This document shows positions 10,558 to 29,466 of a stretch of DNA of 50,016 nt, piece by piece. The translations under genes were made by a program, and so were the position numbers. The stretch covers positions 1-50,016 of IMG/VR virus record IMGVR_UViG_3300047678_000727. One strand, written 5' to 3'. The notes beneath the pieces are model-generated. The model ran no database searches, had not been told where the DNA came from, and saw only the letters and a list, made by a program, of their open reading frames with translations. Source of the DNA: a virus. Numbering within the stretch: the stretch's first letter is position 1; every line of letters begins with the position of its first letter.

Positions 10558-10989
10558 ATGGCCATCAGACTCGGCATGGAAGCCAAGCTCTACTTCAAGA
10601 CCGGCGGACAGGCAGGCGCCGGATCGTGGACGCTCCTGGCCAACGTCAAGGACGTGACGCTCTCGCTGGAGGCGGGTGAGGCCGACGTGACCACACGCGC
10701 CAACAACGGCTGGCGCGCGACCGTCGCCACGCTCAAGGAAGCCACCGTCGAGTGGGAGATGGTGTGGGACACCGGCGATGCCGGGTTCACCGCCATCAAG
10801 AACGCCTTCCTGTCCAACGCCGTCATCGGGCTGCAGGTGCTCGACGATGCCACGCCTTCGGGCGAGGGATTGCAGGCCGACTTCATGATCACCAACTTCA
10901 GCCGCAACGAGGCTCTGGAGGAGGCCATCACCGTCTCGGTGTCCGCAAAGGTCACCTACTCGGCGAGCGCTCCGACATGGCTCGACTGA
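10558..10989 (+). CDS. Phage major tail tube protein
   Basis: A 143-residue protein starting at ATG 10558 after AAGGAG. It has the tail-tube pattern: KLYFKTGG near the N-terminus, KDVTLSLEAGEADVTTRANNGWRATV, then a central EWEMVWDTGDAGFTAI and a final AITVSVSAKVTYSA strand. It is followed by the G/GT chaperone genes, the universal siphovirus order (tube, chaperones, tape measure). The repeat subunit assembles around the tape measure to form the tail tube. Confidence 0.85.
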   Translation: MAIRLGMEAKLYFKTGGQAGAGSWTLLANVKDVTLSLEAGEADVTTRANNGWRATVATLKEATVEWEMVWDTGDAGFTAIKNAFLSNAVIGLQVLDDATPSGEGLQADFMITNFSRNEALEEAITVSVSAKVTYSASAPTWLD

Positions 10990-13230: not shown

Positions 13231-15243
13231 ATGCCCCCCGGAGGTGCTCCCAACACCCGCGGCATCCGCGCCGGTCGCGCCTTCGTCGAGCTCGGCGTCA
13301 GCGACAAGCTGACCGCCGGACTCCGTCGCGCCCAGCAGAGGCTGAAGGCCTTCGGCGAGGGCGTGCGTGCCGCCGGGCTGCGGCTCACCGCGCTCGGCGC
13401 TGGCGTGCTCGCACCGCTGGCCGCGAGCGTGAAGGTCTTCTCGAACACCGGCGACGCCCTCGACAAGATGGCCATCCGCACCGGGATCAGCGTCGAGGCG
13501 CTGTCGGAGCTCGGGTTCGCCGCGGAGCAGTCCGGCGCGGACCTCGAGACGCTCGAGACGGGCGTCCGCATCCTGCAACGATCGATCAGCGACGCCGAGC
13601 GCGGGATGTCCACCGCCACCGACGCGTTCGCCGAGCTGAACCTCACAGCCGCTGCCCTGCGCGGCCTCTCGCCCGAGGACCAGTTCAAGCTCGTCGCGGA
13701 CCGGCTGAGCCAGGTGATCGATCCGGCCAAGCGTACGGCGCTGGCGATGCAGCTCCTCGGCCGCTCGGGCACGCGGCTGATTCCGCTGCTCGAGGGCGGT
13801 GCGGCGGGCATCGAGGAACTCCAGAAGGAGGCACGCGCGTTCGGGCTCACCGTCTCGACCGAGACGGCCGCCGAGGCCGCGCTCCTCAACGACACGCTCA
13901 ACATCCTCTGGCGGGTGCTGAAGCAAGGTGTCTTCGTCATCGGCTCGGCGCTTGCCCCGGTCGTGACCGAGCTCACCGGCCGCATCGCCAAGGCAATCGT
14001 CTCGGTCAACGACTGGATTCGGAACAACAAGGGCCTGATCGTCACCGCCGCAAAGGTGGCGGCGGGCGTCGTCGCTGCGGGCGTGTCGCTGATCGGCCTT
14101 GGGCTTCTCATCAGCGGCATCGGTGCGGCGTTCGGCGTGCTGGCCTCCGTCGTCGCGGGCGTCGGCACGGCACTCGGCGTGGTCGGCGCTGTGGTCGCAG
14201 CGCTGCTCTCCCCGATCGGGCTGGTGATCGCGGCGGTGGCCGGGCTCGGGACGGCGCTCCTCGTCTGGTCAGGCGCGGGAGCCGATGCGCTCGCGTGGCT
14301 CGGGGAGCAGTTCGGTCGGCTGCGCGACTTCGCCACCAAGGTCCTCGGCGGGATCACCGACGCCCTCGCGGCGGGCGACATCCCGCTCGCGGCGCAGATC
14401 CTCTGGCTCGCGTTGCAGCTCGTCTGGCAGAAGGGCGTCGCGTCCCTCAGCCGCATCTGGCTCGGGGCACGCGACTTCTTCGTGACGACCGCCCAGAAGA
14501 TGTGGTTCGGGGCGATCGCCGCGGCGCAGATGGGCTTCCACGCGCTCGAGATCGGGTGGATCGAGACGACCGCCTTCCTCTCCAAGACCTGGACGAACTT
14601 CGCCTCGGGATTCCGCAAGGTGTGGGAGACGGCGACGAGCTTCGTCGCCAAGCGGATGCTTGAGATTCAGGGGCTCTTCGACTCGTCGCTCGACGTCGAC
14701 GCCGCCAAGCGGATCATCGACGACCAGCTCGATTCGCGGCTCGGCGAGATCGACCGCGGCGCGCAGCGCGACCTGTCGGAGCGCGAGACCCGACGCCAGC
14801 GCGAGCGCGATGCTGCTGCGTCCCTCAACGAGGCGACGCTGGCCGAGATCGGGCGTCAGTTCGAGCAGGCCCAGGAGGCGCTCAAGAGCGGCAACGACAC
14901 CCGCATCGCGGAAACGGAGCGCGCACTCGAGGAAGCGCGGCGGAAGCTCGATGAGGCGATCGCCGAAGCGAGGCGCAAGCGCGAGGAGACGGACACCGGG
15001 ACGGACGTGCCGCGCCGCTCACCTGCGGACTTGCTGAGCGAGCTCGAGGACCGGCTGGGTTCCCTCGGCGAGCGGATCGGTCGCGGCATCGAGGTGCGCG
15101 GCACCTTCAGCGGCGCAGCCGTCGCCGGGCTGGCGTCGTCCGGCACCGCCGCCGAGCGCACCGCGCGCGCCAGCGAGCAGACGGCCCGCAACACCAAGCG
15201 GCTGGTGGACGCCGCGCAGTCGGGCGGACTCGCGTTCGGCTGA
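13231..15243 (+). CDS. Tail tape measure protein
   Basis: A 670-residue protein that sets tail length. Typical parts are visible: an N-terminal region with KLTAGLRRAQQRLKAFGEGVRAAGL and SNTGDALDKMAIRTGISVEALSELGFAAEQSGADL (the TP901-type tape-measure pattern), a hydrophobic central domain (~residues 270-350, repeated VVAAGVSLIGLGLLISGIG-like stretches), Trp-containing helices, then a long charged coiled coil (~500-590). It is short for a siphovirus tape measure, implying a tail of roughly 100 nm by the usual proportionality. It starts one base after the previous stop. Confidence 0.88.
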   Translation: MPPGGAPNTRGIRAGRAFVELGVSDKLTAGLRRAQQRLKAFGEGVRAAGLRLTALGAGVLAPLAASVKVFSNTGDALDKMAIRTGISVEALSELGFAAEQSGADLETLETGVRILQRSISDAERGMSTATDAFAELNLTAAALRGLSPEDQFKLVADRLSQVIDPAKRTALAMQLLGRSGTRLIPLLEGGAAGIEELQKEARAFGLTVSTETAAEAALLNDTLNILWRVLKQGVFVIGSALAPVVTELTGRIAKAIVSVNDWIRNNKGLIVTAAKVAAGVVAAGVSLIGLGLLISGIGAAFGVLASVVAGVGTALGVVGAVVAALLSPIGLVIAAVAGLGTALLVWSGAGADALAWLGEQFGRLRDFATKVLGGITDALAAGDIPLAAQILWLALQLVWQKGVASLSRIWLGARDFFVTTAQKMWFGAIAAAQMGFHALEIGWIETTAFLSKTWTNFASGFRKVWETATSFVAKRMLEIQGLFDSSLDVDAAKRIIDDQLDSRLGEIDRGAQRDLSERETRRQRERDAAASLNEATLAEIGRQFEQAQEALKSGNDTRIAETERALEEARRKLDEAIAEARRKREETDTGTDVPRRSPADLLSELEDRLGSLGERIGRGIEVRGTFSGAAVAGLASSGTAAERTARASEQTARNTKRLVDAAQSGGLAFG

Positions 15244-15279: not shown

Positions 15280-16086
15280 GTGCCGATCGTCGTCGCAGAG
15301 AAGTTCGACAGCCGCGTCTCGACCGCCGGACAGAACGCCTCGGTCGAGCTGCGGTACATCGTCTTCGGCACCGGCGACGATCTTGCGGCCCGCGCGCAGT
15401 TGGCGAGCACCTCGCCGACCGCCTACGACGGCCTGCCCCGCCAGTCGATCCAGATCGAGCCGCTCGCCAACGACATCTGGGAGGCGACCGTCCGCTACGG
15501 CGCGAACGACTCGACCGAACCGCCGCAGACGGGCGAGTCGTCCTTCGCGTTCGACACCGGTGGCGGCTCGCAGCACATCACGCACTCGCGAGCGACTGTC
15601 GGCATCTACGCCGCCTCGGGCGTTACGGCACCGAACTTCCAGGGCGCGATCGGCGTCACGGAGAACGGGGTCGAAGGCGTCGACATCACGATCCCGGTCT
15701 ACCAGTTCTCCGAGACGCACTACCTGCCGTCGGGTGCGGTGACGCTCGCCTATCGCGGCACGCTCTTCAACCTCACCGGCAAGGTCAACAACGCCGGCTT
15801 CAAGGGACTCGCGGCGGGCGAGTGTCTCTTCCTCGGGGCATCGGGTTCCAAGCGCGGGAGCGGCGACTGGGAGATCACGTACCGCTTCGCGGGCTCGCCG
15901 AACATGACCGGGCTCGCCATCGGCCCGATCACCGGCATCGCCAAGAAGGGCTGGGAGTACCTCTGGGTGCGCTACGCCGACGTCGAGGACGACGGCGCGA
16001 AGATGCTCGTCAAGCGGCCGATCTCGGTCCATGTCGAGCAGGTCTACAACTCGGACAACTTCGCCGCGCTGGGGATCGGGACATGA
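15280..16086 (+). CDS. Distal tail protein, uncharacterised
   Basis: A 268-residue beta-rich protein starting at GTG 15280 (AGGAG at 15265-15269). It contains Asn/Gly/Thr-rich strands and a block YRFAGSPNMTGLAIGP plus KKGWEYLWVRYADVEDD. Located right after the tape measure, where distal tail or baseplate hub proteins are encoded, it probably forms part of the tail tip. I do not recognise a named family. Confidence 0.6.
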   Translation: MPIVVAEKFDSRVSTAGQNASVELRYIVFGTGDDLAARAQLASTSPTAYDGLPRQSIQIEPLANDIWEATVRYGANDSTEPPQTGESSFAFDTGGGSQHITHSRATVGIYAASGVTAPNFQGAIGVTENGVEGVDITIPVYQFSETHYLPSGAVTLAYRGTLFNLTGKVNNAGFKGLAAGECLFLGASGSKRGSGDWEITYRFAGSPNMTGLAIGPITGIAKKGWEYLWVRYADVEDDGAKMLVKRPISVHVEQVYNSDNFAALGIGT

Positions 16087-17093
16087 GCGATGCCCTCAAG
16101 AAGGTCCGCTCAGGCGAACCGCTTCGCATTCCCGCAGCGGCGTACAACGCCTTCATCGACGCGGCACACTTGGCCCGCCGTATTGATGCCGATGCGCAGG
16201 TGGACCCGCTGCGCGCCGGTGTCGGCGAGCAACTGGTCCTCGTGCGGAACGAGTCGGGCGATGACCTGCCGCGCTTCGGCGTGCTCGGGCTCAATGGGCC
16301 GATCATCTCGCCCGCCTCTGGCAGCGAAGGCAACGCCGACGAGTTCAAGCGGCGCGTGGCCATCGTCGGCGCGGCGATCACCGACACCGACGAGTTCGTC
16401 GGCCGCTTCGTCGTCGCGCGCGAGCCGATGGCGGCTGGCCGCATCGGGCTGGCTGTGCTGCGCGGCGTCACACCCGCGGTCGTCAACGTGGTCGACGCCG
16501 AGCACACCCACGCCGACACCGAGGCCGATGCGCAGTTCCTCAGCAGCGGATTCACGGGCGCAGCGCGCATCCTCTGGAAGGAAGCGGGCACCGGCGCGAA
16601 GCTGGCCATCGTCGAGATCGGCCCGGCGAACCGCGACCGCTTCCCAGCTCGCCTGACCGGCGCGACCGACATCGACGGCCGCACGTTCGGCTGGCTCTAC
16701 GGCTGGGCGGAGGTCCGGCTCGATGCCGATCCGGCGAGCAACACCTTCGCGCAGTACGTCACGCCTCCAGAGGGCAGCGGCGCGCTGTCGTCGTCCGGTT
16801 CGGCCGACAAGCTCGCGTTCAACCGCTACGAGGCGCACCTGTCGGTGATCCACGCGCAGTCGGACGCGGGCATCGAGGGCTTCGCCAACGCCGGTGCGTG
16901 TCTCGTGCCCGGCGTGCTCAAGGACTGCCCGCCCGCCAAGGCGGCGGTGCCGTACCTGCGACCCGTGCCGAAGGGCGTCGTCGTCGAGATGCGCGCCGAG
17001 CGGACGTTGCAGGGTCAGACGCGGTTCGTCTTCGACGCCATGACGCCGATCGAGTTCCGGGAGATGACGGTCCCGCAGGAGCATTACGAGTGA
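16083..17093 (+). CDS. Tail tip-associated protein, uncharacterised
   Basis: A 336-residue protein at ATG 16083 (ATGA overlap with the previous gene). N-terminal helix (PAAAYNAFIDAAHLARR), then small beta-domain material with RFGVLGLNGPIISPASG, a possible carbohydrate- or shaft-type region, and a final FVFDAMTPIEFREMTVP. Context between the distal tail gene and modification enzymes suggests a structural tail-tip role. No known motif is clear, so the function remains open. Confidence 0.55.
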   Translation: MSDALKKVRSGEPLRIPAAAYNAFIDAAHLARRIDADAQVDPLRAGVGEQLVLVRNESGDDLPRFGVLGLNGPIISPASGSEGNADEFKRRVAIVGAAITDTDEFVGRFVVAREPMAAGRIGLAVLRGVTPAVVNVVDAEHTHADTEADAQFLSSGFTGAARILWKEAGTGAKLAIVEIGPANRDRFPARLTGATDIDGRTFGWLYGWAEVRLDADPASNTFAQYVTPPEGSGALSSSGSADKLAFNRYEAHLSVIHAQSDAGIEGFANAGACLVPGVLKDCPPAKAAVPYLRPVPKGVVVEMRAERTLQGQTRFVFDAMTPIEFREMTVPQEHYE

Positions 17094-17638
17094 CGGCGCA
17101 CGCCACGATCGACGAGCGCCGCGAGGCTGAGCGCCGGAAGTACCTCGCGCTGCACGCGCGATCCGGTGGCCGCTACGGCGGGAGCAACCACGGCCGCCGC
17201 GCGATCGTGTCGGTGCTCCTGCGCCAGCCGCGCTTTGTCGTCGACTTCGGCTGCGGCAGCAACGCCTTCATTCGCGAGCTGCGGCGCCGAGGTGCCGACG
17301 GCCTCGGGATCGACTTCGCCGACGACCGCGCCGACATCCTTGCGCCGATGCACGCGGTGCCGCTTGCTGCGGGCATCGCCGACGTCGTCACGAGCTTCGA
17401 TGCGCTCGAGCACCTGCTGCCGGAGGATGTTGATGCGGCGCTAGCCGAGATGCGGCGCATCGCCCGGCCCGGCGCGGCGTTCGTGCTCTCGGTGTCGACG
17501 CGACCGAGCCGGATCACCGCTCATGGCGAGAACCTCCATCCGACGGTGCGACCGCGGGCGTGGTGGCTCGAGCGGATCGCACGCGTCGGCCATGTCGGGC
17601 GCCCTGGCCCGTACATCGAGGGGGTGTTCCATGCGTGA
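17090..17638 (+). CDS. Class I SAM-dependent methyltransferase
   Basis: A 182-residue protein starting at GTG 17090, overlapping the upstream stop (GTGA). The SAM-binding motif I is VVDFGCGSNAF near residue 52, followed by the acidic GIDFADDRADI, post-I, then motif-like VVTSFDALEHL and the strand AAFVLSVSTRP, the standard methyltransferase-11 layout. Target is unknown. It overlaps the MptE-like gene by 8 bases, so they likely work together, perhaps on a glycan or on a modified tail component. It is not a DNA methylase of the NPPY/DPPY type. Confidence 0.75.
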   Translation: MTAHATIDERREAERRKYLALHARSGGRYGGSNHGRRAIVSVLLRQPRFVVDFGCGSNAFIRELRRRGADGLGIDFADDRADILAPMHAVPLAAGIADVVTSFDALEHLLPEDVDAALAEMRRIARPGAAFVLSVSTRPSRITAHGENLHPTVRPRAWWLERIARVGHVGRPGPYIEGVFHA

Positions 17639-18500
17639 CCACGACTCCGACATTGCCGCGCTTCATGCCGGGCTGCATGTGCGCCGACCCGCAAAGAACG
17701 GACTGCGGCTCTACACCACCGATTTCGACAGCGTCTCGCTCTGCGACTTCTACCGCGGGCGGCAGGCGTTTCTGGTGCTCTCGGGACCGTCGCTGGCGAC
17801 GCACGATCTCGCGCAGCTCACGCGGCGCGGCATCGTGACCATGGGCGTCAACAACTCGTGGGCGGTCCATCGACCGAACCTCTGGACCTGCGTCGACTCC
17901 GCGGGTCGCTTCATCGACACCGGCTGGAAGGACCCGGGCATCCTGAAGCTCGTGCCGATGTCGGCGTGGAACGAGCGGCTCCGCATCCAGAAGCCGAGCG
18001 GTGCAATGGCCGCGAGCGCCTTCCGCGTGAAGCAGATGCCCTCGGTCCTGCTCTACCGCCGCAGCGAGCACTTCGACCATCGCCGCTTCCTCGACGAGGA
18101 CGTCGTCTGCTGGGGCAACCACACCGCCACGAAGGACTCCATCGGCATCAAGGGCAAGCGCTCGGTGATGCTCGTCGCGCTGCGTCTCCTGCACTACCTC
18201 GGCTTCCGCACGGTCTACCTCGTCGGCGCGGACTTCAAGATGACGCCCGAGCAGGGCTACGCCTTCGACGAGGCACGGAGCGCCGAGGCCGTCCGCCACA
18301 ACAACGTGCTCTACGACTCGCTGAACCGGCGCTTCGAGGCGCTGCGCGATCACTTCAGGGAGCACCGCTTCGCCGTCCTGAACTGCACGCCTGAGAGTGG
18401 GCTCACCGCGTTCCCGCACATCCCGTTCGAGCAGGCGATCGAGAAGGCCTCAGCCGAGTGCGGCAAGACGATCAACACGAAGGGCTGGTACACGACATGA
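17631..18500 (+). CDS. MptE-like (DUF115) protein
   Basis: A 289-residue protein starting at ATG 17631. The order FLVLSGPSL (residues ~45-53), IVTMGVNNSW, and later VYLVGADF matches the DUF115/MptE-like Rossmann fold found in putative glycosyl- or sialic-acid-transferase-type proteins and pterin diphosphokinases. It ends ECGKTINTKGWYTT. A very similar ending is found at the end of the chimeric DUF2924 gene at 37548-38030. In phage tails such proteins probably add or process surface glycans; substrate is unknown. Confidence 0.7.
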   Translation: MRDHDSDIAALHAGLHVRRPAKNGLRLYTTDFDSVSLCDFYRGRQAFLVLSGPSLATHDLAQLTRRGIVTMGVNNSWAVHRPNLWTCVDSAGRFIDTGWKDPGILKLVPMSAWNERLRIQKPSGAMAASAFRVKQMPSVLLYRRSEHFDHRRFLDEDVVCWGNHTATKDSIGIKGKRSVMLVALRLLHYLGFRTVYLVGADFKMTPEQGYAFDEARSAEAVRHNNVLYDSLNRRFEALRDHFREHRFAVLNCTPESGLTAFPHIPFEQAIEKASAECGKTINTKGWYTT

Positions 18501-19564
18501 GCAGCGCCCAAGGCACGAAGTACTTCCTCTATATCCCCGTCTGGGCGACCACGCAGCAGCCGCCCGGCAGCGGGCCGGGCAGCAGCCAGTCCGAGCCGAC
18601 CGAGAGCACCGAGTCGGCCAGCAGCGTCATGAGCAGCGACGATCCGCCGCCGAGTTCGGAGACGGGCGGATCGAGCGGTGTGGGATCGAGTGGCGTCGGC
18701 TCCAGCGGCGTCGGGTCGAGTGGAGTTGGCTCGAGCGGCGTCGGTTCGAGTGGCGGCGGCACGGGGACCGAAGGCACGGGGCCAGGCGGGACCGGACCGG
18801 GCGGAACCGGCCCCGGTGGTACGGGCCCCGGCGGCACGGGGCCGGGCGGAACCGGTCCGGGTGGGAGCGGTTCCTCGAACTGCCTGCTCTACGGCACGCT
18901 CGTCACGATGGCCGACGGCCGCCGCGTGCCGATCGAGATGCTCGCGCCGGGCGATCTCGTTGCGTCACTCGTGGTCCCCGGCCTCAAGACCGACGTGCCC
19001 TTCGGCCGCCAGTACGAGTGGATGTCGACCTGGGGCCTCGTTGGCGCGAGCCTCAAGCCCGCGCGCCTCGCGAGCGTCCAGCTCGGCGAGCACGACGGCT
19101 TCTTCCTCATCAACGGCCGCATCAAGGCGACGTTCGAGCACCCATTCCTCATCCGCCGCGAACACGAGGGTCAGGATGCGTGGGGCTTCTGCGCCGCGGA
19201 ACTGCTCGGCGTCGGCGACATCCTCATCGTGCGACAGCCTGGGGCGACCGACGACGGCCTCGCCGAGGAGCCGATCGTCACCATCGAACGGATCGCCGGG
19301 CGCGTCCGGACGGTCGCGCTCTGCGTGCCCGGCACGAACACCTTCCTCGCCGATGGCGCGTGGACACACAACACCTTCGGGCCGTCCATCCTGACCCAGA
19401 CGTCCGGCAGCAGTTCGAGCAGCAGCGGCAGCTCCAGCGGGAGCAAGTCGAGCGGATCGAGCTTCTCGAGCAGCAGCGGCTCGCCGGTGCTCACGCAGTT
19501 CACCCAGTCGAGCTTCACCTTCGGGGCCAGCAGCGGGAGCGTCGGGCTCACGAACAAGGGCTGA
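18497..19564 (+). CDS. Hint-domain (intein/hedgehog-type) low-complexity tail-end protein, copy A
   Basis: A 355-residue protein with three parts. The N-terminal 23 residues contain YFLYIPVWATTQQPP, shared with copy B. A Ser/Gly region with GVGSS and GTGPGG repeats follows. Residues ~129-292 are a Hint domain: Cys129 opening CLLYGTLVTMADGRRVPIEM, TFEH (Thr212-His215), and terminal VPGTNTFLADGAWTHNT with His291-Asn292, then Thr293. All catalytic positions are present, and Thr293 could act as +1 nucleophile, so splicing or cleavage is possible. The C-terminus is Ser-rich. It ends the phage operon. Function is unknown; autoprocessing of a tail/surface protein is the natural guess. Confidence 0.8.
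   Translation: MSSAQGTKYFLYIPVWATTQQPPGSGPGSSQSEPTESTESASSVMSSDDPPPSSETGGSSGVGSSGVGSSGVGSSGVGSSGVGSSGGGTGTEGTGPGGTGPGGTGPGGTGPGGTGPGGTGPGGSGSSNCLLYGTLVTMADGRRVPIEMLAPGDLVASLVVPGLKTDVPFGRQYEWMSTWGLVGASLKPARLASVQLGEHDGFFLINGRIKATFEHPFLIRREHEGQDAWGFCAAELLGVGDILIVRQPGATDDGLAEEPIVTIERIAGRVRTVALCVPGTNTFLADGAWTHNTFGPSILTQTSGSSSSSSGSSSGSKSSGSSFSSSSGSPVLTQFTQSSFTFGASSGSVGLTNKG
18667..18872 (+). repeat. Tandem in-gene repeats encoding GVGSS and GTGPGG
   Basis: Inside Hint copy A, a run of about five to six 15-base units encoding (SG)VGSS (about 18667-18755) is followed by about six 15- to 18-base units encoding GTGPGG (about 18774-18872). Spacer-like low-complexity linkers of this kind can change length by slippage. 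The paralog at 38027-39043 has a different but equally repetitive GGGTGGT linker (about 38240-38360). Confidence 0.75.
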
Positions 19565-19679: not shown

Positions 19680-19925
19680 ATGGCCGCGACCCGCCGTCAG
19701 CCCGTCCCCCGGAAAGCCAAGCCCGCCTCAGCGGGCCGGGCTGCCGTGCCGACCGACGCGGTCTACACGATCGACGAGCTGGCGATCTACCTGAAGCTCC
19801 CGAAGCGGACGCTCTACAAGCTGGCGCAGGAGGGCACGATCCCCGGCCACAAGGTGGGGAGGCATTGGCGGTTTCTGCGTGAGACCATTGATACCTGGCT
19901 TCGTAGCGGGGACGCGGTGTCATGA
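19680..19925 (+). CDS. Excisionase/MerR-type HTH regulator of cassette 1
   Basis: An 81-residue protein with a flexible basic N-terminus and a single helix-turn-helix of the AlpA/excisionase type: VYTIDELAIYLKLPKRTLYKLAQEG then IPGHKVGRHWRFLRETIDTWL. It ends GDAVS, its stop overlapping the SNF2 start (ATGA). The paralog at 41003-41239 shares the whole HTH core at protein and DNA level. The protein likely controls the downstream restriction genes through the palindrome at 19642-19657. DNA binding is certain from the fold pattern; the regulatory role is inferred. Confidence 0.82.
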   Translation: MAATRRQPVPRKAKPASAGRAAVPTDAVYTIDELAIYLKLPKRTLYKLAQEGTIPGHKVGRHWRFLRETIDTWLRSGDAVS

Positions 19926-22804
19926 CTGCGATCAGTCCGCATCAAGCCTGCTACTACGCCCACGAACTGACCCGCCTAGGCGCGGTCGGCGAGATGGACC
20001 GCCTGTCCACCACGCTCTTCGACTCGAAGGTCGATCTCAACCCCCACCAGGTTGAGGCCGCACTCTTTGCCATCTCCAATCCCCTCCAGAAAGGCGTCAT
20101 CCTCGCGGACGAGGTGGGCCTCGGAAAGACCATTGAGGCAGGCCTTGTCCTATGCCAGCGATGGGCCGAGCGTCGACGCCGCCTAGTCGTGGTTGCCCCT
20201 GCTCATATCCGAAAACAGTGGCAGACAGAGTTGGCCGAGAAGTTCAACCTGCCCGCCGTCGTTCTGGATCGCCGAGTGTGGAACCAGCTGCGAGCAGAGG
20301 GGCAGCCATACCCTTTTGATTGCGGGAAGATCATCGTCATCTCATACGGCTTCGCCGCCCGGATGAAGGACGATCTGCGCGCGATCCCATTCGACCTTGT
20401 GGTGCTGGACGAAGCGCACAAGCTCCGCAATGCCTATCAGCCCAGTCGGAAGGACGGACAAGCGGTGCGATGGGCCTTTGAGCTGAGACAGAAGCTGCTG
20501 CTCACGGCAACACCGCTCCAGAACAGCCTTCTGGAGCTTTACGGCCTGGGTTGGCTGATCGACGACCACGTCTTCGGCGACAAGAGCGCGTTCCAGTCGC
20601 GCTACTGCAACGCTGGTGGCGATCTCGTTGGTCTTCGCGCTCGCCTCGCGCAGGTGTGCAAGCGCACGCTCCGTAAGGACTGCTCGTACATCAACTACAA
20701 GAAGCGGCAGGCGATGACCCATCCGTTCCCGCAGACGGAGGAGGAAAAAGAGCTCCACCAGGACGTGGTGGACTTCATGACGCGGGAAATCAGCTTCGCG
20801 TTCCCGCAGCGCCAGCGCCAACTGATCGAGATGATCTTGTTCAAGACGCTGGCCTCATCGCCACAGGCGCTCGCGAGCACGCTCGGCACCATGCGCAAGC
20901 GTCTGATCTCACTACGCGATGGTCTGCCCGAAGGCTCCGAAGATGATCTCCTCGACGCCCTGGCCGAGGATGAGGACATCGACATTGATGCGCTGGTCGA
21001 GCAGCTCGATGGCGCCGAGGGCACCGCTGGCCCGTCCAGCCCCATCGTTCAAGGCAAGCTGCTTGCGGGCGAACTCGCGCAGATCGACTCCCTGATCGCG
21101 CGAGCAGAGAGGATCGGCAGCGACAGCAAGTCGAAGGCACTTCTCAAGGCTCTGGACGCCGCGTTTGGGCGCCTGAAAGAACTCGGCGCGACGCGCAAGG
21201 CCCTGATCTTCACGGAGAGCCGTAAGACCCAGGCGTTCCTAGCGGCCTATCTCGAGGCCAACGGCTACGCACGCAAGGTTGTCGTCTTCAACGGCTCCAA
21301 CACGCACCCCAGCGCGAAGCAGGCCTACGACCGTTTCACCAGCAGGCATACTGGCACCGACAAGCTCACCGGCTCGAAGGCCGTCGACATCCGGTCAGCT
21401 CTCATCGAGGAGTTCCGCGATCACGGGGAGATTCTGCTCGCAACCGAGGCAGCCGCAGAAGGCGTGAACCTTCAGTTTTGCTCGCTGGTCGTCAACTACG
21501 ACCTGCCGTGGAACCCGCAGCGGATCGAGCAGCGCATCGGTCGTTGTCACCGTTACGGACAGCAGCACGACGTGGTCGTCGTCAATTTCCTCTCGGAGGG
21601 TAACCTCGCCGATCGGCGCGTCCAGGATCTCCTTCAGCAGAAGTTCAGCTTGTTCGATGGGCTCTTCGGTGCCAGCGATGAAGTGCTGGGCGCGATCGAG
21701 GAAGGTGTGGACTTCGAGAAGCGCGTGCTGGCGATCCTTAAGACCTGCCGGACCGACGAGGAGATCGCGCGGGCCTTCGACGCCCTCCAGCAGGAACTCG
21801 AAGCCACGATCTCGCAGAAGATGACGCAGGCCCAGCAGCAGCTCTTTGAGCACTTCGACGCAGATGTCCACGAGCGATTGAAGATCCGCGGGCAGGACGC
21901 GCAGGTTGCCCTCGACCGCGTTGGTGAGAGATTTTGGAAGCTCGCGCACTGGGGTCTCGACGGTCGGGCAACCTTCGACGATTCCCGTCTTGGGTTCGAC
22001 CTCTCGGCCGCGCCGTCCCCGGACGTCCCGGCCGGTCGCTACCGCCTCATCTCCGCGGCACACTCCGAGGAGGACTATGCGGCGACCGAGGCACACCTGC
22101 TCCGGTTGTCCAGTCCGCTGGGGCAGTGGCTCCTTGGCACCGCAAAGACTCAGACCCTGACATCAGCGACCGTCCGGTTCGACGTGAGCAACCACGACCG
22201 CAAGATCAGCATGCTCAAGCCGCTGGTCGGCAAGCGCGGTTGGTTGCGGCTCGACAAGCTGACGCTGGATAGCGATGCGCGCGAAGAGTTCCTGCTCTTC
22301 ACCGCTGTCACTGATGAGGGCGACAACATCGATCAAGAGCTCCTCCACCGCCTGATGGATGTCTCTGGCAGCGTGGCCGCAGATGCGAGCGAGTGTGTCC
22401 CGCCTGAAGACCGCCTGACGGCCGACGCCGACCGACTGACAAGAGCGAGCCTCGCGCGAGCGAGCGAGGCGGGTGACGACCGCTTCCGGAGAGTCCAGAC
22501 TCAGGTCAACCAGTGGGCGGACGACAAGATCGCCGCCGCCGAGCTGGAACTGGATTCCATCAGGCGTGACCTTCGTGCCGCCCGACGCCAGGCCGACCTC
22601 GCAGAAACCGTGGCTGCACAGCAGCAGTCGATGGAGCAAGTGACGCAGCTTGAAGCGAGACGCCGCCGCGCCCGGCGGAACATCGATGATGTCGAGGACA
22701 CCGTCGAACTGGAACGACAGAGGCTCCTTCAGCAGCTCCAGGCTCGTTGCCAACAGCACCACTCACGCGAACACCTGTTCACTCTCCGCTTCGAAGCGGC
22801 CTGA
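19922..22804 (+). CDS. RapA-like SNF2-family helicase/ATPase of a restriction system
   Basis: A 960-residue superfamily 2 translocase. The first RecA domain has motif I DEVGLGKT (residues ~63-70) and DEAH (163-166), followed by LLTATPLQNS; the second shows EAAAEGVNLQFCSLVVNYDLPWNP and QRIGRCHRYGQ. A long C-terminal coiled-coil region (LEARRRRARRNIDDVEDTVEL) follows. The layout resembles RapA/HepA-like SNF2 proteins found beside type III-like methylases and in DISARM (DrmD), but other DISARM genes are missing here. It probably translocates on DNA to recognise or process foreign DNA together with the next two gene products. Confidence 0.85.
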   Translation: MTAISPHQACYYAHELTRLGAVGEMDRLSTTLFDSKVDLNPHQVEAALFAISNPLQKGVILADEVGLGKTIEAGLVLCQRWAERRRRLVVVAPAHIRKQWQTELAEKFNLPAVVLDRRVWNQLRAEGQPYPFDCGKIIVISYGFAARMKDDLRAIPFDLVVLDEAHKLRNAYQPSRKDGQAVRWAFELRQKLLLTATPLQNSLLELYGLGWLIDDHVFGDKSAFQSRYCNAGGDLVGLRARLAQVCKRTLRKDCSYINYKKRQAMTHPFPQTEEEKELHQDVVDFMTREISFAFPQRQRQLIEMILFKTLASSPQALASTLGTMRKRLISLRDGLPEGSEDDLLDALAEDEDIDIDALVEQLDGAEGTAGPSSPIVQGKLLAGELAQIDSLIARAERIGSDSKSKALLKALDAAFGRLKELGATRKALIFTESRKTQAFLAAYLEANGYARKVVVFNGSNTHPSAKQAYDRFTSRHTGTDKLTGSKAVDIRSALIEEFRDHGEILLATEAAAEGVNLQFCSLVVNYDLPWNPQRIEQRIGRCHRYGQQHDVVVVNFLSEGNLADRRVQDLLQQKFSLFDGLFGASDEVLGAIEEGVDFEKRVLAILKTCRTDEEIARAFDALQQELEATISQKMTQAQQQLFEHFDADVHERLKIRGQDAQVALDRVGERFWKLAHWGLDGRATFDDSRLGFDLSAAPSPDVPAGRYRLISAAHSEEDYAATEAHLLRLSSPLGQWLLGTAKTQTLTSATVRFDVSNHDRKISMLKPLVGKRGWLRLDKLTLDSDAREEFLLFTAVTDEGDNIDQELLHRLMDVSGSVAADASECVPPEDRLTADADRLTRASLARASEAGDDRFRRVQTQVNQWADDKIAAAELELDSIRRDLRAARRQADLAETVAAQQQSMEQVTQLEARRRRARRNIDDVEDTVELERQRLLQQLQARCQQHHSREHLFTLRFEAA

Positions 22805-22821
22805 TACAGCATTGAAACGTC

Positions 22822-24336
22822 ATGCCCACCCCGAACACCGCGATCACGGATAGCAAGTTCAACGCCCTCAAGGCCAAGCTGAGGGAGTTGTTCGAGCTCG
22901 ACAAGTCCGACCTGGACTTCGGCATCTATCGCATAATCGCCGCCAAGAACAAGGAAGTCACCGAGTTCCTCGACCGCCAGTTGAAGGATGTGGTCCGTGG
23001 AACGCTCGCGGCGCACGGGGCCGGGGCTGCCGATCAGGTGCAAGCCGAGTTGGACAAGGTGATCGAGCAGGCTCGCGCCCTCGGGGCCGATCCTGAGACG
23101 CTGCCCAAGGTAAGAGACCTACGCGCCCGGCTGGAGTCCGCGGGCGGTGCGGCATCCGCTGACCTCGAAGCCGACATCTACAACCACCTGTTGGCCTTCT
23201 TCGGGCGCTACTACGACGAGGGCGATTTCATTTCGCAGCGTCGGTACAAGGGCGACACCTACGCGATCCCGTACAGCGGCGAAGAGGTGACGCTCCACTG
23301 GGCCAACAAGGACCAGTACTACATCAAGTCCGGCGAGTGGCACAAGGACTACCGCTTCAAGATCGGGGACAAGATCGTCCGCTTCAAGTTGGTCGAAGCC
23401 ACGCAGGAGGTCGGCAACAACAAGGAAGCGGACGACGCCAAGCGACGCTACATCCTCGCGGCAGAGAATCCCGTCGAGGAGTCACCAAACACCTTGACGC
23501 TGCGCTTCGAGTTCCGCGTGCCAACGCAGGCCGACAAGGACCGTGCCGCCGCCGGCGCCGTCACCGTGTTCGGCGGCGACTATGCCAAGGCCACAAGCCC
23601 CAAGAAGGGTGACGAGCGAGAGCAGTTCTGCGCCGACGCTGAGAAGCGAGTGATTGCTGCGATGCCCGAGGCGTGGAAGACGTTGGTCGCCGTCCCCGGG
23701 GCCGCCGCCACGGCGGACAAGCCCGCACGATCGCTCCTCGGCAAGCATCTGGATCATTTCTCCGCGCGCAACACCTTCGACTACTTCATCCACAAGGACT
23801 TGGGCAGCTTCCTTCGCCGCGAGTTGGATTTCTACATCAAGAACGAGGTGGTGCGACTGGACGATCTGGAGTCGCTTCCGCCCGACCGCCTGCAGCGCGT
23901 GCAAGGCAAGGTCAAGGCTATCCGCGCCGTGGCCAGCCGCCTGATCGCGTTCCTCAGCTCGCTCGAAGACTTCCAGAAGAAAATGTGGCTCAAGAAGAAA
24001 TTCGTGCTCAACACGAACTGGCTCGTGACCGTGGACCGCCTCCCGCCGGCACTGCGCGATGTGGTCGTAGCAAGCGCCGAGCAGTGGGCCGAGTGGGAGC
24101 GGCTGGGCTTCAAGCCGGAGAACATGGGTGACGCCGGACTGTTCGGGGGGCGGCGTGGGGAACCCGAGCGTACCTGGACGCGTGCGACAAGCTGGTCGTG
24201 GATACGCGGTTCTTTGGATCAGAGTTCACATCCGAGTTGCTCTGCGGAGACACGGTGCTCTGCGGTGCGAGCACGGCGGACGAGTGCACCGCAGGGACGG
24301 TCGTTTCTGGCGACAATTTCCACGCGATTAGGCTAA
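22822..24336 (+). CDS. Type III-like Mod methyltransferase, N-terminal fragment
   Basis: Frame 1 encodes the N-terminal part of a site-specific adenine methyltransferase: a helical start (KFNALKAKLRELFELDKSDLDFGIYRII), YIKSGEWHKDYRFKIG, and KPENMGDAGLFGG. Near 24145-24150 the frame becomes nonsense (RRGEPERTWTRATSW), while the expected continuation GTRAYLDACDKLVVDTRFFG is read in frame 3 from the same bases. Thus a single base is missing (or slippage is needed) in the G6 tract. The reading to 24336 is an artefact of the wrong frame. Spacing to the SNF2 stop is 17 bases. Confidence 0.8.
   Translation: MPTPNTAITDSKFNALKAKLRELFELDKSDLDFGIYRIIAAKNKEVTEFLDRQLKDVVRGTLAAHGAGAADQVQAELDKVIEQARALGADPETLPKVRDLRARLESAGGAASADLEADIYNHLLAFFGRYYDEGDFISQRRYKGDTYAIPYSGEEVTLHWANKDQYYIKSGEWHKDYRFKIGDKIVRFKLVEATQEVGNNKEADDAKRRYILAAENPVEESPNTLTLRFEFRVPTQADKDRAAAGAVTVFGGDYAKATSPKKGDEREQFCADAEKRVIAAMPEAWKTLVAVPGAAATADKPARSLLGKHLDHFSARNTFDYFIHKDLGSFLRRELDFYIKNEVVRLDDLESLPPDRLQRVQGKVKAIRAVASRLIAFLSSLEDFQKKMWLKKKFVLNTNWLVTVDRLPPALRDVVVASAEQWAEWERLGFKPENMGDAGLFGGRRGEPERTWTRATSWSWIRGSLDQSSHPSCSAETRCSAVRARRTSAPQGRSFLATISTRLG
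24145..24150 (+). other. G6 homopolymer at the methyltransferase frame break
   Basis: TTC-GGG-GGG-(G)CG GCG TGG GGA ACC: with a seventh G the two frames join as LFGGAAWGTRAYLDACDKL. The sequence shows six Gs, so the break is a one-base deficit. It could be an assembly error, a mutation, or phase variation by slippage. Confidence 0.75.
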
Positions 24337-26153
24337 TGCTACCGGTCTTGCGGGGTGCGGTTCAGGGTATCTACATCGATCCCCCGTACAACACAAGTGC
24401 TTCGGAGATCGTCTACAAGAACGGATATCGTAGTTCGTCTTGGGCGAGCATGATCGCAGATCGCATTCAGCTCGGACGTGTGATGCTGAGTGCAACGGGT
24501 GCACACTGCTACACAATCGACGACTACGAACTCGCGACGTCGCTCCGCCTTCTCGATAACGTCTTCTGCAGCGAGAATCACCTTGCAACTGTGCCGATTC
24601 GAAACAATCCACAAGGGCGCTCCACCGTCGAGGGATTTGCGGTTAACCATGAGTATGCGATCTTCCACCGTGCGTCTGCATCACTAGAATCTGTCGGTCG
24701 ACTGGAGCGCACGCAACAGCAGATAGATCGATATCGAGAGCGAGATGAAAGAGGCAGACGATTCCTCTGGGACAATTTAAGGAAGACCGGGACCGACTCA
24801 GAAAGGGCTGATCGGCCGAAGCAGTACTTCCCCCTGTACGTCCACCCCGACAACACCGTGTCTATTCCGCAGATGGAATGGAGGCGGGACCAGAGTGTGT
24901 GGGAAGTGATCGCCGAGCCCCCGCCTGGAGTGTCCGTCGTGCTACCGGATACGCAAAGCGGAGAGCAGAAATGCTGGAAGAAAGGTGCTGACACGCTTCA
25001 GGAGCTTTTGCCACTGCTTCGAGTCGAACGGGACGGTGACCGAGTAGAGATTTACTACCGCGGGTACCTGAACGACGCTGGACGATTGCCTGGCACATGG
25101 TGGGACGAGGCAAAGTACGCGGCAGGATCGCACGGAACAAATCTGCTCGCGTCCATGTTTGCCGGGGCCCGCACCTTCTCGTTCCCAAAGTCGATTCATG
25201 CGGTACAAGATTGCCTTCGGGTGCTTGGTGTGAGGGACGGAGACGTTGTGGTTGACTATTTTGGGGGATCAGGGACAACTGCCCACGCGGTCCTTGAACT
25301 CAACCGGGTGGAGGAACTGCGACTCAGATTTGTCATTGTTGAGATGGGCGAGTACACCAGGTCCGTTCTGTTGCCGCGCATTGCCAAAGCGAGCTACTCG
25401 CCCAACTGGAGCGAAGGCCTAGCGACTTCTCATGACAAGGGGCTCTCCGTTCTCATTAAGTGCATTGCTGTCGAATCCTACGAAGACGCCCTCAACAACC
25501 TCCCCGCGCCGTCCGGCACGCTTCTCGATGGCCGTTCGGACGCCGAGAAGGACGCCCTGCTCACCTACGGTCTCGATCTCGAACTCGGCCCGCACCTGCT
25601 CAATCTGGACGCCTTCCGCGATCCGTGGGGTTACGCCATCCACGCCCAACTGGCGGGCGACGCCGAGATCAAGCGGCACCGTGTCGATCTAGTGGAGACC
25701 TTCAACTACCTGATCGGCCTGAAGGTGCATGCGTACGGGCCGCTGGAGCGGTACAGCGCCGACTTCGAGCGGGCCGCGCACGCCGATGGCCTCGGACGGA
25801 TCAAGATCACGGGCCGCTTGCGCCGCGATCCGAACGGCCCGTTCAAGTTCCAACGAGTCGAGGGCGAGTTGAACGACGGCAGCGCGACCCGCGTGCTCGT
25901 GGTCTGGCGCAAGCTGACGGACGACGCGGAGCAGGATGCCGCCGTGCTCGATGCATGGATGGCCCGGCACCGCGAGACCACCCGCGAACGGACGGAACAC
26001 CGCGATTACCACATCATCTATATCAATGGCCCGGTGACATTGCCGCAACCGACGGCGGAGATTCGCACCGTGTTCCCGACCGAGGAGACGTTCAAGATCA
26101 AGATGTTCGAGGACACGGACTCTGCGTCCGGCCCCGGAGGCGTCAATGGCTAG
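24198..26153 (+). CDS. Type III-like Mod methyltransferase, catalytic/TRD and C-terminal fragment
   Basis: 651 residues if read from ATG 24198, but as a unit this is the continuation of the gene at 22822. Motif IV DPPYNT is at residues 61-66; motif I FGGSGTT is at 355-361. Motif IV before motif I is the beta-class order, with the target recognition domain between them. A middle stretch (about 24190-25450) is visibly less GC-rich than its flanks, then composition returns to normal, suggesting exchange of the catalytic/TRD module. The end overlaps the Res-like start by 8 bases. The merged protein would be about 1110 residues. It would protect host DNA; if truly broken, the nuclease may be self-toxic or silent. 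Confidence 0.8.
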   Translation: MDTRFFGSEFTSELLCGDTVLCGASTADECTAGTVVSGDNFHAIRLMLPVLRGAVQGIYIDPPYNTSASEIVYKNGYRSSSWASMIADRIQLGRVMLSATGAHCYTIDDYELATSLRLLDNVFCSENHLATVPIRNNPQGRSTVEGFAVNHEYAIFHRASASLESVGRLERTQQQIDRYRERDERGRRFLWDNLRKTGTDSERADRPKQYFPLYVHPDNTVSIPQMEWRRDQSVWEVIAEPPPGVSVVLPDTQSGEQKCWKKGADTLQELLPLLRVERDGDRVEIYYRGYLNDAGRLPGTWWDEAKYAAGSHGTNLLASMFAGARTFSFPKSIHAVQDCLRVLGVRDGDVVVDYFGGSGTTAHAVLELNRVEELRLRFVIVEMGEYTRSVLLPRIAKASYSPNWSEGLATSHDKGLSVLIKCIAVESYEDALNNLPAPSGTLLDGRSDAEKDALLTYGLDLELGPHLLNLDAFRDPWGYAIHAQLAGDAEIKRHRVDLVETFNYLIGLKVHAYGPLERYSADFERAAHADGLGRIKITGRLRRDPNGPFKFQRVEGELNDGSATRVLVVWRKLTDDAEQDAAVLDAWMARHRETTRERTEHRDYHIIYINGPVTLPQPTAEIRTVFPTEETFKIKMFEDTDSASGPGGVNG

Positions 26154-29100
26154 GCGACCCCGTGTGCAACCGGACTTCCACCGCCAGACGGTGTTGTTTC
26201 AGTGGGCGCTGGCGAAGCTTGGCGTCAAGGACTTGAAGCAGTTCAAGGATCGCTTCCAACTCTCCCCGGACAATGCCGAGGGAATCGACGAACGAACGGG
26301 CCTGCATCGATTCTTCGAGGCCATAGCCGGAGTGTTGCCCACTGTCACCGACGCCAACGTCGTGCCTTTGGATCGCCTGCGAGCCTTTGAGCAGAACATT
26401 CTCGAGCACACGCAGGCGATCAATGCGGCCCGGTTTCGACACAATCAGCCTCGGATCGATTGGAAATACCACCAGTATCTCGCGCTGCTCTTCACGGAGT
26501 TGTTTCTCGATCGGTACTTCGACGACGCGGCCGCCGTCCGTGACGAGATCAACACGCGAATCGCCGAGCACAACGCGGAAGCTGCCGAGCCCGATCGGGT
26601 CGCGCCGTTCCCGACCGACGCAGTTGGCGACGACGATGCCGACCCGCGTCGGCAACTGGCTCGACTCGCGTTCTGGTGCGCCACGGGCAGCGGCAAGACG
26701 CTTCTCATGCATGTGCATGTACGGCAGTTCCGGCAATACCACCAACGGGCCTTCGCCGCAGGCACATGGCCAAAGCTCGATCAGATCATCCTTGTGACTC
26801 CCAACGACGGGCTCAGCGACCAGCACGCGACGGAGTTCACGCAGTCTGGTTTCGAGGTTGTGACTGTCGGCGAGCAGGGTGTTGATGGGCTCTTCTCCGA
26901 AGTCGCTCAGCGCGCGATCAAGATCCTCTCGATCCACAAGTTCCAGGATGACCACGGCCAGGCGACTGTGGCGACCGAGGCGTTCGCGGGGTGCAATCTG
27001 GTCCTCGTGGACGAGGGGCACCGTGGCGCGGGTCGCGGCGAGGACGGCAAGTGGCTCTCGCGACGCGATCAGCTCGCCAAGGGTGGGTTCTGCATCGAGT
27101 ACTCTGCCACGTTCAAAGAGGCAATCGGCACCGACGAGGCGATGAAGAACAGGTACGCCCGGAGCGTGCTGTTCGACTACGCCTACCGCAGCTTCTATCG
27201 CGATGGGTACGGCAAGGACTTCACGATCCTGAATCTGGAAGACGACGACAAGCAGCGGCGATACCTCACCGCAGCAGTGCTCTTGTTCTATCAGCAGTTG
27301 CGGGTGTGGATGGACGGCGGCGAGGCGATGAAGCCGTTCCAGATCGACAAGCCGCTATGGGTGTTCGTCGGGCACACGGTGACGGGCGGCAAGGTGTCGA
27401 GCACGGACGACAAGGAGTCCGTGTCGGACGTCGTCGAAGTGCTCCTGTTCCTGAAGGCATTCCTCGCCGCGCCCGCCGAGGCGGTCGCGCTCATCCAGAG
27501 CTTGCTGGAGGAAGGGTTCAAGGATCAGAACGGGCGTGACCTGCTGGCGCACCGGTTGCCGCACATTGATGTGTCCGGCGACAAGGCCGCGCAGGCACGG
27601 GCGCTGCACGAGGGCATTCTGAGGGATGTGTTCCACGCTCCCGGTGGCGGCGTGCTGGCCGTCCAGATGCTCAGAGGGGCGACCGGTGAGCTGGCGCTCA
27701 AAGTCGGCGAGGCCGAACCGTTCGGCGTCGTCAATGTGGGTGAGCCGGGCGCTGTCGCGGACGCCTGCGAGGCCAAGGGTGTCGTGCGATTGGAGGATGA
27801 TGCCAATCGCTCGTCTCTGTTCCAGGGCATCAACCGTGATGACAGCCCGATCAATCTTCTCGTGGGCTCCCGGAAGTTCACGGAGGGGTGGAACTCCTGG
27901 CGTGTGTCGTCCATCGGGCTCATGCGCATGGGTAAGAGCGAAGGCACGCAGATCATCCAGTTGTTCGGGCGGGGCGTGCGGCTGCGGGGTTACCGGATGA
28001 GCCTGCGCCGATCCTCCGTGCTGGCGGACAAGCCAGCGCCGCCCAGGAATCTGCGGCAGGTCGAGACGCTTCAGGTCTTCGGCGTCAAAGCCACCTACAT
28101 GAACACGTTTCGGGACTGGATTTTCAGCGAGGTTCCGGAGGCACAGGAGAAGCAGGTCTGGGACATACCGGTCGTCAAGACGCTGCCGGAGCGAAAGCTC
28201 AAGACGCTTCGTCTGCGTGCGGAGATCGATGGCGAGACCGTGGAACGCGGCCAGGCGTTCCGCAAGCTCGGGCCGCTCGTGCGGCTCCGGCCGCCGCACG
28301 AGACCGCGCCGGAGGATGCGTGGCTCCGACACCATCGCACCAAGCTGAACTGGCTGCCGCGCATTCGCGGCATCGCCGGTGCAAATCAGCAGATCACCGC
28401 CGCGATCGGGCAGGCCGCGGAGCTGCCGAGGCAGACGCTCAAGTCAGTACCGCTGTTCCTGTTCGATCTCGACGGCCTGTTGTTCGGACTTGAAGCATTC
28501 AAAGCGACCCGTGGGCTGGATCGTCTGCACGCCGATCTCGCGGCCATCACAGCGATGTTGACACGCGACGACTGGTACGAGTTGCTGGCGACCACCGACG
28601 ACATGCGCCTCGACCGCTACGAAAATCGCTCGCACTGGCAGCGCATGGCACAGCAGTTGCTGAACGCCTATGCCGAGCGGTTCTACCGCTACATCCGGGG
28701 GCGATGGGAAGCGCCTTATCTGGAAGTGGCCGAGCTGGCACCCGACGATCCCAACCTCGTGGACGGATACAGCATCGAGACGACTGATCTGGCGCAAACC
28801 GCCGAACAGATCGAGCAGATTGCGACCTTCATCGAGGGGCTTAAAACGGCGCTGGGGCAGAACCTCCTCGCCACGTGGAGCCAGTGGGGCGGGCGTTGGC
28901 GCACGGTGCCGTTCGGAGGCCACCTGTATCAGCCCCTCCTCCACGTCGGGAAGAACGCGGAGATCCGGATCAGCCCCGTCGCCCTCGACAAGTGGGAGGC
29001 TCAGTTTGTGCAGGACCTGGCCACATGGTGCGCGGCCAACCGCGGGAGCGAGGTCTACCTCCTGCGCAATCAGGCGGTCACGGGCCTCGGGTTCTTCCAG

Positions 29101-29466
29101 GCGGCAAACTTCTTCCCCGACTTTCTCCTGTGGCTGCAGGAGGGGGACCGCCAGCACTTGGCGTTCGTCGATCCGAAGGGTCTGCATCACTTCGACCCCA
29201 GCGACCCCAAGGTGCAATTCGCCACACGCGAGGTGCCCCGGCTCCAACAGATCGTCGAGCGACAGGCTCCCGACCTGCAACTGCACGCCTTCATCCTCTC
29301 GAACACCCCGTTCGCTAGCCTCGGCTGGTCACGCGGCGCGGGCCAACTCATGACCAAGGCGGAGGTCGAAGGGCTGGGAGTCCTCTTCCAGTCGGATGAC
29401 GCCACGACCTACGTGGGGACCCTCTTCGATGTCATCCAGCGGCGGCCGGTGCCCGGCCCGGCATGA
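26146..29466 (+). CDS. Type III Res-like helicase-nuclease (restriction subunit)
   Basis: A 1106-residue protein starting at ATG 26146. Motif I ATGSGKT is at residues 179-185, DEGH at 289-292, and the second RecA domain has SRKFTEGWNSWRVSSIGLMRMGKSEGTQIIQLFGRGVRLRG in pieces, the usual Res pattern. The C-terminus contains a PD-(D/E)xK nuclease-like motif: PDFLLW with Asp992 and VDPKG with Asp1009 and Lys1011. It cuts DNA after ATP-dependent translocation, in concert with Mod and probably the SNF2 protein. Length exceeds classic Res (~970). It is the last gene of the cassette; its stop is 94 bases before the shared 3' repeat. Confidence 0.85.
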   Translation: MARRPRVQPDFHRQTVLFQWALAKLGVKDLKQFKDRFQLSPDNAEGIDERTGLHRFFEAIAGVLPTVTDANVVPLDRLRAFEQNILEHTQAINAARFRHNQPRIDWKYHQYLALLFTELFLDRYFDDAAAVRDEINTRIAEHNAEAAEPDRVAPFPTDAVGDDDADPRRQLARLAFWCATGSGKTLLMHVHVRQFRQYHQRAFAAGTWPKLDQIILVTPNDGLSDQHATEFTQSGFEVVTVGEQGVDGLFSEVAQRAIKILSIHKFQDDHGQATVATEAFAGCNLVLVDEGHRGAGRGEDGKWLSRRDQLAKGGFCIEYSATFKEAIGTDEAMKNRYARSVLFDYAYRSFYRDGYGKDFTILNLEDDDKQRRYLTAAVLLFYQQLRVWMDGGEAMKPFQIDKPLWVFVGHTVTGGKVSSTDDKESVSDVVEVLLFLKAFLAAPAEAVALIQSLLEEGFKDQNGRDLLAHRLPHIDVSGDKAAQARALHEGILRDVFHAPGGGVLAVQMLRGATGELALKVGEAEPFGVVNVGEPGAVADACEAKGVVRLEDDANRSSLFQGINRDDSPINLLVGSRKFTEGWNSWRVSSIGLMRMGKSEGTQIIQLFGRGVRLRGYRMSLRRSSVLADKPAPPRNLRQVETLQVFGVKATYMNTFRDWIFSEVPEAQEKQVWDIPVVKTLPERKLKTLRLRAEIDGETVERGQAFRKLGPLVRLRPPHETAPEDAWLRHHRTKLNWLPRIRGIAGANQQITAAIGQAAELPRQTLKSVPLFLFDLDGLLFGLEAFKATRGLDRLHADLAAITAMLTRDDWYELLATTDDMRLDRYENRSHWQRMAQQLLNAYAERFYRYIRGRWEAPYLEVAELAPDDPNLVDGYSIETTDLAQTAEQIEQIATFIEGLKTALGQNLLATWSQWGGRWRTVPFGGHLYQPLLHVGKNAEIRISPVALDKWEAQFVQDLATWCAANRGSEVYLLRNQAVTGLGFFQAANFFPDFLLWLQEGDRQHLAFVDPKGLHHFDPSDPKVQFATREVPRLQQIVERQAPDLQLHAFILSNTPFASLGWSRGAGQLMTKAEVEGLGVLFQSDDATTYVGTLFDVIQRRPVPGPA

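Follow-up and report, generated by a model that had tools for sequence, protein, structure and literature searches.

The described systems closest to the domain studied here are the type A bacterial intein-like (BIL) domains and the BIL2 domain of the ciliate Tetrahymena thermophila. As characterized in the available portions of PMC4031507 and PMC7664689, type A BILs keep a terminal His-Asn (HN), lack the +1 nucleophile, and undergo cleavage together with some ligation by a free amine; most of their products come from cleavage. BIL2, from the BUBL1 locus (6y75, 6tmm), has ubiquitin-like flanks. According to the accessible part of PMC8616854, it forms an isopeptide bond between a lysine and the N-terminal flank, and a lysine of the C-flanking domain is speculated to be the nucleophile that takes this flank.

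Here we describe Hint1, a protein with a predicted Hint domain from a virus whose host group is the Phycisphaerae (Planctomycetota). BIL2 belongs to the Hint family, as Hint1 does, and is its best fold match; the lysine of the BIL2 C-flank has a candidate counterpart in a lysine that is invariant in our alignments. Unlike BIL2, Hint1 is a putative surface protein of a phage; its linkers are Ser/Gly, and it has no ubiquitin-like domain. Type A BILs, such as the Clostridium thermocellum BIL 2lwy, share with Hint1 the HN end and the absence of a required +1 nucleophile. Hint1 differs in its phage tail-operon setting and in the downstream conserved lysine, which is not among the type A BIL features described in the available portions of the sources. 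Class 1 mini-inteins (Ssp DnaB, Npu DnaB) have the same fold, Cys1, TxxH and HN, and natural alleles without the domain; in the Hint1 family, however, the +1 residue is not a conserved Cys/Ser/Thr, and the domain lies within a low-complexity linker rather than a conserved enzyme site. The hedgehog Hog domain is alike in fold, in C-terminal placement and in the thioester chemistry that we propose for Hint1, and its acceptor is cholesterol (PMC7664689, in the portions available). The lysine kept in every relative analyzed suggests that phages may use Hint to glue fiber proteins via a lysine side chain.

Hint1, its neighbors and its predicted fold

The window, that is, the stretch of DNA analyzed here, is the whole 50,016-base virus record. 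The Hint1 gene (18497-19564, + strand) is an open reading frame for 355 residues with an ATG start and detectable homologs, and its start overlaps the end of the preceding MptE-like gene via ATGA. From N- to C-terminus the protein comprises an anchor (TKYFLYIPVWATTQQPP), Ser/Gly/Thr linkers, the Hint domain and a Ser-rich C-terminal segment. The anchor motif KYFLYIPVWATTQQPP (residues 8-23; 18518-18565, + strand) is conserved in viral and Phycisphaerae relatives. Checking the translation of the Hint domain (residues 129-292; 18881-19372, + strand) confirmed the complete motifs that a prior sequence-only reading had placed there, namely Cys129, Thr212-x-x-His215 and His291-Asn292. The −1 residue, Asn128, is encoded at 18878-18880. 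The linkers, described in that reading as low-complexity Ser/Gly, proved to be tandem repeats of 15-base units (18667-18759 and 18785-18861) coding SSGVG and GGTGP units (18665-18864, + strand), and the length change it anticipated can be seen between close relatives: GGTGP units number 5 in the window and 6 in both L010 and L011, and SSGVG units number 5, 3 and 2 in the window, L010 and L011, respectively. C-terminal of Hint lies the motif K-S-S-G-S-S-F with Lys317 (19445-19465, + strand), our proposed amine acceptor. The conserved lysine after the Hint domain is a point absent from the sequence-only reading.

Hint1 is indeed, as claimed, the last gene of a phage tail operon. Upstream are genes for a GpA-type terminase (632-2911), a portal (5117-6607), a capsid protein (6627-8738), a major tail tube protein (10558-10989, + strand; PF06199) and a tail tape measure protein (13231-15243, + strand; phrog_8462, E 1.7e-47). 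These are followed by a conserved tail-operon gene without a family match (15280-16086, + strand), the tail-operon gene gp16083 (16083-17093, + strand), a class I methyltransferase gene (17090-17638, + strand) and, directly upstream of Hint1, an MptE-like or sialyltransferase-like gene (17631-18500, + strand). Hint1 thus lies in a structural operon, as expected for a phage virion protein. The methyltransferase neighbor named earlier is clear (PF13489, E 5.5e-13, scanned as 16898-17638). The MptE-like neighbor held up in part: such a gene precedes the anchor protein in 49/49 viral loci found by anchor pattern alone, but its Pfam match is weak (18.3 bits against a cut-off of 34.6), and PHROG 4603, "alpha-2,3-sialyltransferase", fits it better (E 4.9e-10). 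Glycosyltransferase-like genes follow the anchor protein in several viral loci; one of two such genes has Gly_transf_sug above cut-off, and the other has no Pfam match. Given the MptE-/sialyltransferase-like neighbor and the Ser/Thr-rich linkers, we suggest, less firmly, that the linkers are probably O-glycosylated by the products of the adjacent glycosyltransferase-like genes.

Against Pfam Hint_2, the Hint1 domain scored 14.1 bits, below the gathering score of 28.4, and Hint2, a second Hint protein of the window, likewise fell below it. Matches from a phmmer search of PDB sequences were confined to the Gly/Ser linkers. An AlphaFold2 model of the Hint domain built from 17 homologs has an intact Hint fold (pLDDT 89.7, pTM 0.86), in agreement with a family alignment, and this predicted model was used for structure comparison with Foldseek and VIA-align. 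The best VIA-align match was T. thermophila BIL2 (6y75; Z 20.4, rmsd 1.7, 139 aligned); the Ssp DnaB mini-intein gave Z 19.7, the Clostridium BIL 2lwy Z 18.3 (rmsd 1.4, 131 aligned) and hedgehog 1at0 Z 17.6. The modeled fold, the N-terminal Cys and the block B T-x-x-H (59/59 unique relatives) place the domain in the Hint superfamily. An HN end in 59/59 with a variable +1 residue agrees with type A BILs as defined in the available text of PMC4031507. The +1 Cys/Ser/Thr of class 1 inteins is not kept across representatives, though the window copy has Thr, and the flanks are Ser/Gly low-complexity rather than ubiquitin-like as in BUBL proteins. Overall, the Hint domain resembles type A BIL domains, and the earlier "splicing or cleaving" protein can be refined to one with a BIL-like Hint and a conserved lysine as candidate acceptor.

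In polymorphic toxins, a PT-HINT protein carries a C-terminal toxin domain after Hint. Toxin release of this kind was rejected here, as Hint is followed by Ser/Gly-rich segments of 16-130 residues and no toxin domain.

Conservation in Phycisphaerae-type proteins and distant phage fibers

Ninety-two raw records with Hint (Hint+) were reduced to 59 unique relatives, from which 90% clustering gave 25 representatives. Left out of the 59 was L012, in which the Hint gene of a Phycisphaeraceae MAG is split over two frames by a frameshift (7536-8695), a pseudogene or an assembly error. Relatives in genome collections lie at nine loci, in Phycisphaerae and other Planctomycetota MAGs. In the class to which one of these relatives (G003) belongs, 30/298 genomes match at E 1e-5 or better; several of these matches are weak, and the weak ones were used for that count alone.

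Cys1, T-x-EHP and HN are each present in 59/59 unique relatives. At +1, 21 of the 25 representatives have Asp, two have Thr, and Tyr and Gln occur once each; at −1, 23 have Asn and two have Ser. Thr293, to which the sequence-only reading had drawn attention as a +1 residue, is present, but a role as splicing nucleophile found no support in the comparison with relatives, which mostly have Asp there. With no conserved residue at +1, canonical intein splicing through Thr293 is unlikely and was rejected as the mechanism of the family. For the Hint domain, dN/dS was 0.04-0.11 in 9/11 pairs computed, and the other two values were 0.30 (L018/L023) and 0.335 (the near-identical L022/L116). By these values, purifying selection acts on the Hint domain.

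The motif K-S-S-G-S-S-F/M sits in a hypervariable Ser/Gly segment after HN in each Hint+ protein. Its Lys is found in 59/59 unique relatives and 25/25 representatives, 6-52 residues from HN, and K-x-S-G-[SA]-[SG] is matched by 58/59, L128 having KSNGSS. Arg occurs in 3/25 representatives. The upstream N-linkers contain no Lys among 8922 residues (49 complete anchored proteins). Codons for the motif Gly vary synonymously (GGG 10, GGC 9, GGA 3, GGT 3), which argues for selection on the protein. An AlphaFold2 model of Hint with its tail left the Lys without a defined position: the C-terminal segment was disordered, and residues 194-202 alone, overlapping the motif at 193-199, escaped pLDDT <50, a weak order.

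Among the 49 anchor-pattern loci, 13 were cut by a contig or locus end and 1 was partial, leaving 30 Hint+ and 5 Hint-less. With the MptE-like gene as bait, 31 loci were obtained; the gene is followed by a Hint+ protein in 16 and a Hint-less one in 5, and the protein is missing in 3. In the rest, the anchor protein was cut by a contig end (1) or there was too little downstream sequence (6). In L018 (7299-9546), two Hint genes stand in tandem within a single tail operon; both have the cassette of Hint plus KSSGSSF, fused to two other N-terminal proteins, one a homolog of gp16083.

The five complete Hint-less viral homologs (L067, L075, L082, L096, L109) share the anchor and linkers with Hint+ proteins. 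They also have a C-terminal FIEGG-(M/V)-EGVPPA-x-WQ region, which is found in 11/42 Hint+ proteins listed. In the MptE-like tree, the Hint-less rows make up a single clade with one change, which under midpoint rooting is nested among the Hint+ rows. These proteins have neither Hint nor the Lys motif, and since a different segment replaces both, the joint absence counts as one event. Within the shared C-terminal region, Hint+ proteins L064, L069, L073, L076 and L077 have PPAKWQ and the Hint-less ones PPA[NGE]WQ; the Lys of PPAKWQ is thus a second Lys that goes with Hint and that all five Hint-less homologs are without.

Hint also stands at the very end of fiber or collagen-like proteins of Erwinia and Dickeya jumbo phages, phage NCTB and viral contigs. 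Many phage fibers thus have a terminal Hint domain, and the earlier description of the architecture as unusual was too strong. Like Hint1, these proteins combine Hint, HN and a following Lys, here in a short segment, with a Gly-rich linker in many, and they are virion or fiber proteins by annotation; they differ in that the segment is 2-24 residues long without KSSGSSF and that −1 is often Gly, not Asn. The −1 Asn of the Phycisphaerae-type family, as against the common Gly of distant fibers, may affect the fate of a thioester.

A first scan, run with these Hint domains as queries, recovered 41 loci; in each, HN is followed by a terminal segment of 4-22 residues, with Lys in 41/41. A second scan used a different alignment (A6) and search patterns inside the Hint domain; in the best 80 of 133 relatives, all end in HN plus 2-24 residues and Lys is present in 80/80, the shortest Lys segments including KF and IK. 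The two scans overlap in part (e.g. L199/L165), and the second is not wholly new sequence. Merging them gave 74 unique sequences, with HN in 74/74, Cys1 in 72/74 and the T..[EQ]H pattern in 69/74, and 28 clusters at 50% identity. Set aside from the cluster analysis was L009_744 (NCTB), a standalone Hint without Cys1 whose segment is KVD; L156 and L157 (Ruminococcus and Vibrio phage matches) have no row, as the script pattern missed the domain.

Lys is present in 28/28 fiber clusters against 12.0 expected from 233 C-termini of neighboring ORFs (log10P −10.7, treating clusters as independent), a comparison that controls for general C-terminal Lys enrichment. In a smaller first C-terminus control, on 10 clusters, P was about 7e-5. 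A residue-composition null, which gave much smaller P values, was replaced because it is blind to C-terminal bias. The residue after the Lys is Ala at 15/28 clusters, and the surroundings of the fiber Lys are mostly not conserved. The fiber +1 residues are mostly Ala, Phe, Leu, Val and others, which excludes canonical splicing for most fibers. Two other origins of the Lys were rejected: a Shine-Dalgarno by-product, with overlap in 6/72, and plain positive charge, Arg being rare (2/14 fiber clusters at 40% identity and 3/25 Phycisphaerae-type representatives). A literature search for phage fiber Hint domains with a lysine or an isopeptide, with subscription journals and preprints largely outside its coverage, turned up no paper describing such a conserved lysine; the articles consulted included PMC3556154, PMC5259590, PMC7824862 and PMC6143709. 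Phage NCTB (L009) has several neighboring Hint-bearing genes, and in Yoloswag (L154) a "putative large intein domain protein" lies beside an HNH endonuclease gene.

The conserved lysine as a candidate acyl acceptor

On the strength of sequence, model and analogy, we tentatively propose, at a shade under even confidence, that Hint1 sits on the virion surface of Phycisphaerae phages and processes itself by means of a type A BIL-like Hint, its N-terminal part becoming joined through a lysine. From the observed residues and conservation and the predicted fold, we infer the chemistry, the choice between cis and trans, and the biological use as follows. Cys129 would attack the Asn128-Cys129 bond, forming a thioester on the N-terminal anchor-and-linker part. 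The acyl group could then pass to an amine, for which the side chain of Lys317 is the best candidate, giving an isopeptide bond; this acceptor may lie in the same chain or in a neighboring subunit. With the cyclization of Asn292, Hint would come free of the C-terminal segment. The outcome would be a virion protein with its N-terminal part covalently attached via lysine, analogous to Tetrahymena BIL2. We favor this order of thioester, Lys and Asn292 cyclization because of the BIL2 lysine precedent and because BIL2 is the best structural match. Given that attaching a peptide of 2-20 residues in cis has no obvious use, a cross-link in trans or an auxiliary role of the Lys should be considered. 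Against the lysine proposal, the +1 Thr of the window copy would permit ordinary splicing.

A broader form of the proposal, which we consider somewhat less likely than not, is that phages widely carry self-ligating virion proteins. A terminal Hint would activate the fiber C-terminus as a thioester and pass it to a dedicated lysine, in cis or in a neighboring subunit, yielding isopeptide-joined fibers or surface strands without a separate enzyme or ATP, much like a ubiquitin-type ligation within one protein. Hint1 and Hint2 would then be the Phycisphaerae branch, with the acceptor in the KSSGSSF tag.

Type A BIL splicing via an alpha-amine would proceed differently: Asn292 cyclizes first, and the freed amino group of the +1 residue (Thr, Asp) attacks the Cys129 thioester. 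An ordinary peptide bond would then link the flanks, giving a product that looks like a Hint-less allele; in the window, Thr293 could also be a class 1 nucleophile. Although this mechanism is known for type A BILs (PMC4031507, in its available text) and natural Hint-less proteins with matching N- and C-terminal parts exist, we consider it unlikely here, as it leaves the Lys in 59/59 relatives and 28/28 fiber clusters unexplained while +1 varies freely.

We also think it improbable that Hint acts by cleavage only, cutting itself out by thioester hydrolysis and Asn cyclization so that the virion protein is matured or released, with the Lys segment docking or releasing. BILs do yield mostly cleavage products (PMC7664689, PMC4031507, both in the portions available), and on chemical grounds the −1 Asn of 23/25 representatives might favor N-terminal cleavage. 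However, a Lys 6-52 residues from HN, at a place where Arg is rare, points to amine chemistry rather than charge docking. Moreover, long-segment Hint+ proteins retain a conserved C-terminal region, which in Hint-less proteins belongs to a single chain, and the N- and C-terminal parts shared with Hint-less alleles favor re-joining over mere cleavage.

The C-terminal Hint of fibers is reminiscent of the hedgehog layout (1at0, Z 17.6) and glycosyltransferase-like genes adjoin, which could be explained by a hedgehog-like transfer in which a sugar, lipid or host-surface amine takes the thioester and the Lys aids catalysis or binding. No such acceptor is known, and HN is invariant here whereas the hedgehog Hog domain is not known to have an HN end, making this account distinctly improbable. 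Finally, Hint could be inert in the virion and kept unprocessed as a folding cap. That processing is so far a prediction throughout this family speaks for such a cap, but the invariance of C1, T-x-EHP and HN, together with dN/dS near 0.1, is hard to explain without catalysis, and we give this idea very little credence.

The Hint domains of phages are commonly interpreted as inteins and, as such, as parasites. Lys in 74/74 unique fiber and 59/59 Phycisphaerae-type sequences, at variable distance, argues instead for a role in virion assembly. Were the lysine the acyl acceptor, phages would be building covalent fibers by a hedgehog- or BUBL-like reaction, which could yield a new protein-ligation tool.

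Hint2 and repeated blocks in the window

Hint2, the second Hint gene of the window (38027-39043, + strand), had gone unmentioned in the sequence-only reading. It encodes a 338-residue paralog with a +1 Asp, a Hint domain 61% identical to that of Hint1, and the Lys motif KSSGSSF (38921-38941, + strand). Directly upstream is a chimeric DUF2924-like ORF (37548-38030, + strand) whose last part resembles the MptE-like C-terminus.

Comparison of the window with itself revealed four repeated blocks: Hint, an HTH_17 gene, a 305-base noncoding block and a DUF2924 region. Downstream of both Hint genes come an HTH_17-type gene and a restriction-type defense region. The first of these regions (19680-29466) holds an SNF2 helicase, methyltransferase-like genes and a ResIII protein, and the second (39711-48138) a GmrSD_N protein and type I HsdM/S/R. 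Copies of the block of about 305 bases (29561-29865 and 48976-49279), which are apparently noncoding and 85% identical, each sit after one of the two restriction-modification regions; the block may serve tandem units as an end or attachment region. A large serine recombinase lies with an intact DUF2924 gene at 32413-34505, and the second DUF2924 copy (37548-38030) is truncated and forms a fusion with the last part of an MptE-like gene, an arrangement that suggests a tandem or deleted prophage. At 49358-50016, running off the end of the window, is what we take to be an IS3-type transposase gene.
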